Source of the DNA: an uncultured Mucilaginibacter sp.
Lineage (GTDB): Bacteria > Bacteroidota > Bacteroidia > Sphingobacteriales > Sphingobacteriaceae
Assembly: GCA_903864275.1 (NCBI GenBank)
Contig: CAIPFE010000028.1
Location: forward strand, 279,921-343,920
Length of the DNA: 64,000 nucleotides
Reading direction: 5' to 3'
A model generated the notes under the pieces. It did not search any database. It was not told where the DNA came from and saw only the letters and a list, made by a program, of their open reading frames with translations. Shown one piece after another: positions 2,781-59,559 of this stretch (position 1 is its first letter; every line of letters begins with the position of its first letter). The translations under genes were made by a program, and so were the position numbers.

Positions 2781-4088
2781 CTAATGCTTTTTCTTATTAT
2801 TCATCTTAGCCTTCATGCCGGCGCTGAAATTCTTAGTTTTTAAATTGCCCGCTTTTTTCTCATGAAAAGCCTCGCCAGTCACGGGAATAGCTGCATTTTT
2901 CTTCACAGGTAGCTTTTCGTCCGTATCAATATGTTTTTTGTCCTTTTCGATAACAAGCAGCTCGGGTAATTCGCCAACGGGTATTTTTTGACCAATAGCC
3001 TGCTCAATCTTTTTTACCAGGGTAAGTTCCAGGTCAGTAGTAAAAGTAAGGGCCAGCGTTTCTTCTTCGTTACCCGGTTTATTGCTTACTATCCGTTCAA
3101 TAAAGGACTCTTTATCTGCAGGTAATTCAAAATGTATAAGAAATGGAATATCCTTCAATTCCTTTGCTTCAATATTTTCATCGGCGATAATCAAAACCCT
3201 GATTTGCTCCAACGCCCTAAACGCGTCAATTGCAGCCAAACTATTAAACTCAACCGACCACGAGCTAAGCAAAGCAACCGAACCCTTTAACCTGCTATGC
3301 AGGCTTTTATAAACTTTTTCGGCAGTTTGGCGGTTATTTACAAAAATCACTGTTTTGGTAAACAGTTCCTCATCCTGCATAAACAAATTCAGCAGGTTTA
3401 ATTTTGTTCCAAAATTCGGCACATGGTATAATACCTGTGGAAGTGTTTCAATCTTAAGTTCCCCCAATTCCTCTACCTCGACGGTAGCCGGGTTTTTCAT
3501 GAACGGGGCAATCATTTTGTTCAGTTTATCATGTATTACCGATGTAAAAACCAGGTGCTGGCATTTGGTGATACTGTTGGCCAATTCAGCAACAGGCAAT
3601 TGAAGGCCCTGTTTAACTATTTGTTCGGCGTCATCAACAATAAACAGATCGATCTTATTCAGGTTTAGCCCAAGTTTTAAATAGATGGCACGGGCCCTGT
3701 CAGGAGTTGCCACTACAATATCGGCGCCATCGGCCAGGGCGTTCATCTGGGCTTCGATGCCAGGGGCCGCATACAAACCTACGAACAATACCGATTTGTT
3801 TTTATTCAGCAGCTCAAATTGGCTGATAACTTCCAATACTCTTTCTTTATCGGGAACAAGGATCAACACGAGTGGAACCCCCTCTGAAGTGTGCTTTAAC
3901 CGGTTTAGTACCGCTAATACATAGGTGCTTGTTTTGCCGCAGCCATCAGGTCCGACGGCGATAACATCCTGCCCGCCAATTATCCGCGACAAAGTTTTCA
4001 TCTGAATTTCTTTAGGGGCCAAATAACCAGCTTCAGCTACCGACCGCAACAATTGTTTATTCAGCTTCAATTTTTCTGACCACGTCAT
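2781..4088 (-). CDS. Degenerate DEAD-box RNA helicase-like protein
   Basis: A 435-residue protein with the two-RecA layout of DEAD-box helicases. Walker A is intact (GPDGCGKT, 46-53), as is a motif Ib-like VVATPDRA. Other catalytic motifs deviate: motif II reads DDAE (152-155) instead of DEAD, motif III TSV (182-184) instead of SAT, motif V IIADENIEAKEL lacks the usual TDVAARG form, and motif VI reads ERIVSNKP (331-338) in place of HRIGRTGR, so both conserved arginines are missing. The basic, Lys-rich tail (FSAGMKAKMNNKKKH) suggests RNA contact. ATP binding is possible, but normal helicase cycling is doubtful. The gene lies downstream of truA on the same strand, 84 nt away. Confidence 0.8.
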   Translation of the reverse strand: MTWSEKLKLNKQLLRSVAEAGYLAPKEIQMKTLSRIIGGQDVIAVGPDGCGKTSTYVLAVLNRLKHTSEGVPLVLILVPDKERVLEVISQFELLNKNKSVLFVGLYAAPGIEAQMNALADGADIVVATPDRARAIYLKLGLNLNKIDLFIVDDAEQIVKQGLQLPVAELANSITKCQHLVFTSVIHDKLNKMIAPFMKNPATVEVEELGELKIETLPQVLYHVPNFGTKLNLLNLFMQDEELFTKTVIFVNNRQTAEKVYKSLHSRLKGSVALLSSWSVEFNSLAAIDAFRALEQIRVLIIADENIEAKELKDIPFLIHFELPADKESFIERIVSNKPGNEEETLALTFTTDLELTLVKKIEQAIGQKIPVGELPELLVIEKDKKHIDTDEKLPVKKNAAIPVTGEAFHEKKAGNLKTKNFSAGMKAKMNNKKKH

Positions 4089-5012: not shown

Positions 5013-5092
5013 AAACTTACCTTTTTAAATGGCGAAGCCTTCAATGAGGCCTTAAAAAAACAAATATTATCTGAATTAAACTTCGTAAGTTT
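5013..5092. repeat. Dispersed repeat element, copy A (about 80 bp, imperfect terminal inverted repeats)
   Basis: This stretch shares its internal sequence with 25211-25293: both contain GGC-GCC-AA-GAGGCC-AAAAAACAAAT blocks and end in AAACTTCGTAAGT. The right arm is AAACTTCGTAAGTTT; the left arm AAACTTAC has lost about three bases relative to the perfect copy. Read in the + direction both copies stay open and give related peptides (LTFLNGEAFNEALKKQI here). The shared arms also occur at 59527-59559 without the internal part. Confidence 0.7.
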
Positions 5093-25210: not shown

Positions 25211-25293
25211 AGACTTACGAAGTTTTTAAACGGCAGAGCCCTCAACGAGGCCTATAAAAAACAAATTTACGACGAGTTAAACTTCGTAAGTCT
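25211..25293. repeat. Dispersed repeat element, copy B (83 bp, perfect 15-bp terminal inverted repeats)
   Basis: AGACTTACGAAGTTT (25211-25225) and AAACTTCGTAAGTCT (25279-25293) are exact inverted repeats around 53 bp. The inner part matches copy A at 5013-5092. The + strand stays open and encodes a peptide (LTKFLNGRALNEAYKKQI) related to that of copy A, with several synonymous differences between them. It lies between converging genes, 8 nt from the DUF5020 stop, and could also act as a hairpin terminator. Confidence 0.8.
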
Positions 25294-27798: not shown

Positions 27799-27815
27799 TT
27801 TGGAGAAAAGTTTGC

Positions 27816-27868
27816 AGTCCTCAGTTTGCAATAAATAATGCTAAACTGCCAATTGCAAACTGAGGACT
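27816..27868. terminator. 17-bp perfect inverted repeat between converging genes
   Basis: AGTCCTCAGTTTGCAAT (27816-27832) and its exact reverse complement (27852-27868) flank a 19-nt loop. The right arm touches the last base of the CYTH gene. It is long enough to stop transcription from both the DUF3892 (+) and CYTH (-) sides, though there is no T-run. Confidence 0.6.
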
Positions 27869-28335
27869 CACCACTTTTTAAAGGGATGTATCGAAAGATT
27901 TGAATTATAATATCTCGCATCATCGCTCACTTCCATAGTTAACCAGCCAGGTTTTTTAAATTCTTCCGTTTCGTTTTTCAATTCGATCTCTGCCATAATC
28001 AGCCCTTCATTATCGCCCAAAAACTTATCTACTTCCCATAATTTGCCGGCAAAGTCAATACGGTAACGTATTTTTTCCACTTCTGACAGGGCAAAACCAT
28101 CTAACAGTTCGTTGCCATCCGCAACAGGTATTTTATATTCGTATTCTTTACGTGTAATGCCGGAAGTCGCACCTTTAATAGTGATGAAGCCTTGCTGATC
28201 AGTAACCCTCACCCTGATTGTCCTCCGGTCGTCATTCAATAAATATCCCTGCCTGTAATGTGTTCCGGCCGGTTTTATTACTTGGCGCCATTTTTCATGG
28301 TCAACCAAAAACTTTCGCTCTATTTCAAGGCCCAT
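27868..28335 (-). CDS. CYTH-domain (triphosphate tunnel) protein
   Basis: A 155-residue CYTH protein. The ExExK signature is in GLEIERKFLV at the N-terminus; RQGYLLNDDRRTIRVRVTDQQGFITIKG and RYRIDFAGKLWEVDKFLGDNEGLIMAEIELKNE supply the further charged residues of the tunnel. The family hydrolyses triphosphates or inorganic triphosphate, or cyclises ATP; short stand-alone bacterial members are usually triphosphatases. It follows the CHAD gene by 16 nt in one operon, the expected functional pairing with polyphosphate-type substrates. Confidence 0.92.
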   Translation of the reverse strand: MGLEIERKFLVDHEKWRQVIKPAGTHYRQGYLLNDDRRTIRVRVTDQQGFITIKGATSGITRKEYEYKIPVADGNELLDGFALSEVEKIRYRIDFAGKLWEVDKFLGDNEGLIMAEIELKNETEEFKKPGWLTMEVSDDARYYNSNLSIHPFKKW

Positions 28336-37263: not shown

Positions 37264-37329
37264 AGTCGAAAGTCTTAAGTTGGAAGTCCCAGGTAAAAAA
37301 AGCACAACTTCAACGTAAGACTTTCGACT
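37264..37329. repeat. 24-bp imperfect inverted repeat (AGTCGAAAGTCTTA arms)
   Basis: AGTCGAAAGTCTTAAGTTGG... (37264-37287) pairs with ...CAACGTAAGACTTTCGACT (37307-37329) with one mismatch and one bulge around a 19-nt loop. It begins five bases after the lipoprotein stop. Confidence 0.7.
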
Positions 37330-59526: not shown

Positions 59527-59559
59527 AGACTTACGAAGTTTTCGAAACTTCGTAAGTCT
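59527..59559. repeat. Perfect 15-bp inverted repeat; minimal form of the dispersed element
   Basis: AGACTTACGAAGTTT-TCG-AAACTTCGTAAGTCT is a perfect hairpin with a 3-nt loop, followed on the + side by TTTT. Its arms are identical to the terminal inverted repeats of copy B at 25211-25293, but the 53-bp interior is absent. It separates the 17-module kinase start from the kinase remnant and methyltransferase, and may break or attenuate the transcript. Confidence 0.85.

Follow-up and report, generated by a model that had tools for sequence, protein, structure and literature searches.

A dispersed REP-like palindrome of Mucilaginibacter which occurs in a hollow form and in a filled form with a structured module in its loop

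RAYTs are single-domain HUH/Y1 tyrosine transposases which copy or move REP hairpins as single-stranded DNA and place them between genes. For the RAYT genes of subclass 2.6 (group 5) of the Bacteroidetes, the available text of their description reports 'atypical secondary structures' that flank the genes and have copies elsewhere in the genome (PMC6006769). The element described here resembles this system in its dispersed extragenic hairpins, in a gene flanked by the same hairpin, in the motif YIHQNP and in its taxonomic home, but some of its REPs enclose a second module, a composite that does not appear in the available part of that text (PMC6006769). Composite palindromes have been described in A. 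variabilis and H. neapolitanus, where REP dimers lie inside longer palindromes (PMC3733652); here, in contrast, it is the REP that forms the outer palindrome, around an inner part that is distributed differently. In S. suis, one inner boxB is found within two different end pairs (BOX elements, PMC3049150). Streptococcal BOX elements are likewise modular, with ends that occur with or without inner modules, and the core described here is also found in several frames; however, our element has for its ends a REP to which a transposase of its own belongs, and the comparison is an analogy of architecture only, with no homology or sequence relation claimed. Mini-hairpins of the GCGAAGC type are extraordinarily stable, which has been described as a chemical property of oligonucleotides and not for a genomic repeat (PMC10527192); the inner hairpin P2 of our element contains GCGAAGC or a GNA-loop variant of it. 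The reading preferred here, to which a probability of roughly 80% is given, is that the hollow form is the REP of a RAYT and that the filled form is a REP with a separate structured module, mobilised in trans.

The window (the whole 64-kb stretch of DNA that was analysed) holds three members of the family, namely the filled copies B and A and one hollow copy consisting of arms only (Table 1). The 15-bp arms of B are perfect and spaced 53 nt; those of the hollow copy are identical to them and spaced 3 nt, forming a palindrome of 33 bp. The interior of A is related to that of B. A covariance model was trained on 26 copies (B, A, two more from the same genome and twenty-two from related genomes), giving E-values of 1.5e-23 for B, 1.5e-16 for A and 1.3e-7 for the hollow copy (37 bits), of which only the last is independent, B and A having belonged to the training set. 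The scan of the 64-kb window with this model gave no further convincing copies. A small dispersed element with filled and hollow forms and with perfect arms in B, as given in the preliminary description, is therefore what is seen. Two other inverted repeats were observed in the window: one of 27 nt at 27806-27878 (85% complementary, 19-nt spacer), possibly of another dispersed hairpin family, and one of 19 nt at 37264-37329 (AGTCGAAAGTCTTAAGTTG, 28-nt loop), akin to the word-like repeats of the genus.

Table 1. Positions of the three family members in the window and of the parts of copy B
Feature	Position	Strand	Remark
Copy B, complete filled element (REP arms and inner module)	25211..25293	+	covariance model 95 bits, training member
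B left arm AGACTTACGAAGTTT, P1 5' strand	25211..25225	+	
B right arm AAACTTCGTAAGTCT, P1 3' strand	25279..25293	+	
B inner hairpin P2, GGC-AGA-GCC (consensus GGC-GNA-GCC)	25232..25240	+	
B inner stem P3, 5' strand AAC-GA-GG	25244..25250	+	covarying pair AAC/GTT
B inner stem P3, 3' strand AC-GA-GTT	25272..25278	+	
Copy A, filled, left arm damaged; P3 in T-A version (AAT/ATT)	5013..5092	+	69.6 bits, training member
Hollow copy, REP palindrome (loop of 3 nt)	59527..59559	.	

BLAST analysis of the 6.03-Mb source genome with B as query identified fifty-five places at E<=1, and the palindrome was matched exactly ten times (five per strand, at the same five sites; reversed control 0). When arm matches were paired, the genome-wide search that had been proposed for the element yielded twenty-five hollow and six filled copies. 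All twenty-five hollow copies have a loop of exactly 3 nt; the filled ones are B, A, L002, L003, L005 and L006, the last two damaged. The hollow arms vary from copy to copy, yet stay complementary within each copy, with 359 of 375 arm positions agreeing against a permutation mean of 334.6 (0 of 20000 as high). A short hairpin in tens of dispersed extragenic copies, the trait of a REP, is thus present. The REPIN layout of two complete inverted REPs was not found, each copy having one arm pair only, and the flanking duplications suggested for examination were also not seen, as none of the 25 fam1 copies possesses in-register direct repeats that would mark a target duplication.

In six related genomes the arm palindrome CTTACGAAGTTTTNAAAACTTCGTAAG was identified within 400 bp of orthologous genes of one RAYT clade, upstream in 6/6 and downstream in 5/6 cases. 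The proteins of this clade comprise 181-182 aa with NHFH and YIHQNP motifs, and the six orthologues share 74-100% identity with the query. Among 24 other Y1 homologues (26-37% identity) not one has the palindrome at its flanks, and within the genus the Y1 (IS200-like) transposase genes possess either palindromes of their own or none. The RAYT protein matches Y1_Tnp; it resembles the NCBIfam model REP_Tyr_transpos (REP-associated tyrosine transposase) with an E-value of 3e-18 and 66 bits, which is under the model cut-off of 80, and TnpA-REP of E. coli (4er8) with an E-value of 0.006. The motifs of subclass 2.6 / group 5 are YIH[QN]NP and NH[LIV]H; YIHQNP is present, and the HuH motif here is NHFH. 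The assignment, based on motifs and host phylum, is thus putative. No GTAG or CGTC foot was found beside the hairpins of the window or the RAYT-flanking copies; as the structures flanking subclass 2.6 genes are atypical according to the available text (PMC6006769), the foot would define GTAG/CGTC REPs and not all RAYT hairpins. These results argue strongly for the arm palindrome as the REP belonging to one specific RAYT of the HUH/Y1 type. The perfect terminal inverted repeats and non-coding interior would also suit a MITE of an unrelated (e.g. DDE) transposon with 15-bp ends, but hollow palindromes without any interior bracket a Y1 gene and the fam1 copies are without target duplications, making this origin highly improbable.

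The RAYT genes are flanked by hollow copies and never by filled ones. The RAYT-like transposase for which a search had been suggested was found next to copies of the palindrome in the six relatives, but a cognate gene is absent from the source genome, where none of the three Y1 genes has these arms and no Y1 gene is located close to the copies; the REP copies of this genome therefore look orphaned. No cognate RAYT was identified among the Y1 loci examined of G033 and G122 (the latter 86% complete), the genomes richest in filled copies. As filled copies flank no RAYT either, one has to assume that the enzyme acts in trans or was active in the past. The source genome has a second REP-RAYT system, consisting of two closely similar Y1 genes (L036 and L037) with copies of the REP GGTTCAAGCGTCCCGCTTGAACC, which lies on both sides of the L036 gene and exactly on one side at L037. 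Another Y1 gene of this genome, at locus L035, is located between AGCGATGGGTTT palindromes at 1384-1408 and 1933-1957 of that locus.

A pattern search identified 82 distinct filled copies in 31 of 150 genomes of the genus (reversed-pattern control 0), so that relatives carry the element as well. Their interior consists of a P2 hairpin, GGC-NNA-GCC, and a P3 stem, AAC-GA-G...C-GA-GTT, which contains tandem G-A steps and closes an A-rich loop. The P2 loop is GNA in 60/82 copies, the P2 stem and last loop A being preset by the search pattern, so that their constancy is no evidence. One pair of P3 is C-G in fifty copies, T-A in thirty-one and T-G in one, with none mispaired, and the C-G and T-A versions coexist within each of four genomes. 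In an alignment of 26 full-arm sequences 96.6% of cells pair, and seven pairs have changed on both sides (31 cells; 0 of 500 shuffles as high), a signal which is abolished by sliding the pairing partners. Related copies are not independent, and most weight is given to the within-genome coexistence and to the independent families described below. The covariation analysis proposed in the preliminary description thus revealed strict covariation of P3 in the 82 copies and compensatory changes in the 26-sequence alignment, P3 pairs covarying both within and between species. Of the selected RNA suggested there, the selected structure is supported by this covariation; RNA is a possible form of it, but folded DNA fits equally well. 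We regard the evidence as strong that the filled form is a composite, a REP with a structured module in its loop. The three-way shape and tandem G-A steps also led to a hammerhead-like ribozyme being considered; this was rejected, as a position that ought to be invariant takes part in a covarying Watson-Crick pair and nothing was found with Rfam.

It had also been proposed that A and B derive from a formerly translated segment, since the same frame is open in both and some of their differences are synonymous; an in-frame palindromic element like the RPE of Rickettsia would be a similar case. In 59 of the 82 filled copies of the genus, however, the frame of the proposed peptide is interrupted by a stop, and across the 82 copies the lengths (63-69 nt) vary out of frame, with mixed end phases. 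The changes AAC>AAT and GAG>GAA between A and B are the two sides of a single P3 pair (C-G to T-A), and this compensatory pair explains part of the apparently synonymous signal. Furthermore, fam1 copies sit between genes, whereas the trait of the Rickettsia element is in-frame insertion inside genes, which was not seen here. The peptide reading is refuted at the level of the family, and any such origin of the filled form is extremely improbable. Because the paired letters change together, the filled form is a folded, copied element and not a lost gene.

The filled interiors are more alike within genomes (0.842) than between them (0.787; 0 of 2000 permutations), which suggests that the composite was amplified as one unit, although gene conversion or shared ancestry could also account for it. 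At one orthologous gap G098 has a filled copy and G015 a hollow one, but the flanks could not be aligned, and two separate events may be involved. In G029, two filled copies are located in an inverted 190-bp duplication (L303:1427-1623 and 3802-3991) which G009 is without. Other dispersed repeats were seen at L303:4572-4670 (about 90 bp, at least 12 copies in G029) and at L314:373-674 (about 300 bp, at least 10 copies in G098).

With simple ORF calls, 51 filled copies were placed in 18 convergent, 31 tandem and only 2 divergent gene contexts, and at the tandem sites the module lies in sense orientation at a ratio of 23:8 (p 0.011, with copies that are not independent and uncorrected for relatedness). 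The filled form could accordingly be chiefly a functional RNA at mRNA 3' ends (resembling a 3'-UTR stabiliser or terminator), selected on transcripts, with mobility secondary; the covarying stems and the G-A steps, which define a sense strand, are compatible with this. In view of the few divergent sites and the sense bias, a role as RNA is conceivable. Against it, module copies in other frames (fam3/4) occupy divergent gaps in 8/24 cases with no strand bias, a U-tract is absent and no known Rfam RNA is matched at the gathering threshold. Moreover, REPs in general accumulate at 3' ends. We consider the RNA explanation unlikely as the principal one.

Apart from the composite REP, the module is found in other frames. 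Its core AACGGCGAAGCCCTCA occurs fourteen times in the source genome and in 27 of 61 genomes of the genus (control 0), with at least three further contexts, i.e. CT-rich hairpins (CCTAAA-core-TCC), direct repeats of the AATCCGAAATC type and others. When each species was represented by a single genome, a scan gave at least 117 stretches with the core, mostly from Bacteroidota among the matches listed; among these same listed matches the second stem frequently takes the form of a short hairpin, AAC-GAA-GTT, or, alternatively, a long form, A-N-GA-N-N/N-N-GA-N-T, with covarying pairs. P3 of the other families is paired in 96 of 104 cases against a permutation mean of 78 (0 of 20000 as high); with its 12 distinct forms, 12 of 20000 permutations were as high. 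The distribution of the module is wider than that of the REP which holds it here. Arms are not a general trait of the core, as flank complementarity outside the genus is 3.97 compared with 3.92 when permuted. Cores in other contexts show a direct-repeat excess of 1.74 versus 0.66; insertion is unproven there, because the flanks are tandem-like words anyway. The possibility that the core is the REP of another RAYT was rejected: no Y1 gene lies near core or arm copies in 230 loci (1.18 Mb), and in ten Bacteroidales-type genomes none of the 30 Y1 loci had a core-like word in its vicinity. It is tentatively proposed, at slightly less than even odds, that the module (AAC-GGCGNAGCC-CTC plus the A-NN-GA stem) is an independent structured mobile unit found throughout the Bacteroidota, inserted into or grafted onto REPs, CT-rich hairpins and AATCCGAAATC-type repeats by a structure-recognising mover to which none of the Y1 genes seen here is linked. 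In Bacteroidales-type MAGs (L122, L144, L162 and L172), intergenic strings of mini-hairpin words (AAACGGCGTCAGCCAT, AAACGCCGCAGGCAT, AAACGGGCGTTAGCCC) were observed, the core being one word among them.

For the REP and its composite, the following mechanism can be put forward. The hollow 33-bp palindrome would be the target hairpin of the RAYT, which would cut and join such hairpins. An enzyme of this kind, later lost from the source genome, may have made the copies seen in the window. The module would have been grafted into the REP loop once or a few times. On the filled strand, the P1 arms are predicted to enclose P2 and P3 in a T-shaped three-way fold, and through these arms the composite would be mobilised in trans by the RAYT. 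A Bacteroidota palindrome tied to one transposase clade, within a RAYT subclass that has received little study, provides a testable enzyme-substrate pair. Moreover, a REP can hold another structured module, one that covaries strongly, and the same module recurs throughout the phylum in unrelated frames. It thereby becomes testable how very small non-coding repeats gain parts and swap them, and whether selection acts on folded DNA or on RNA.
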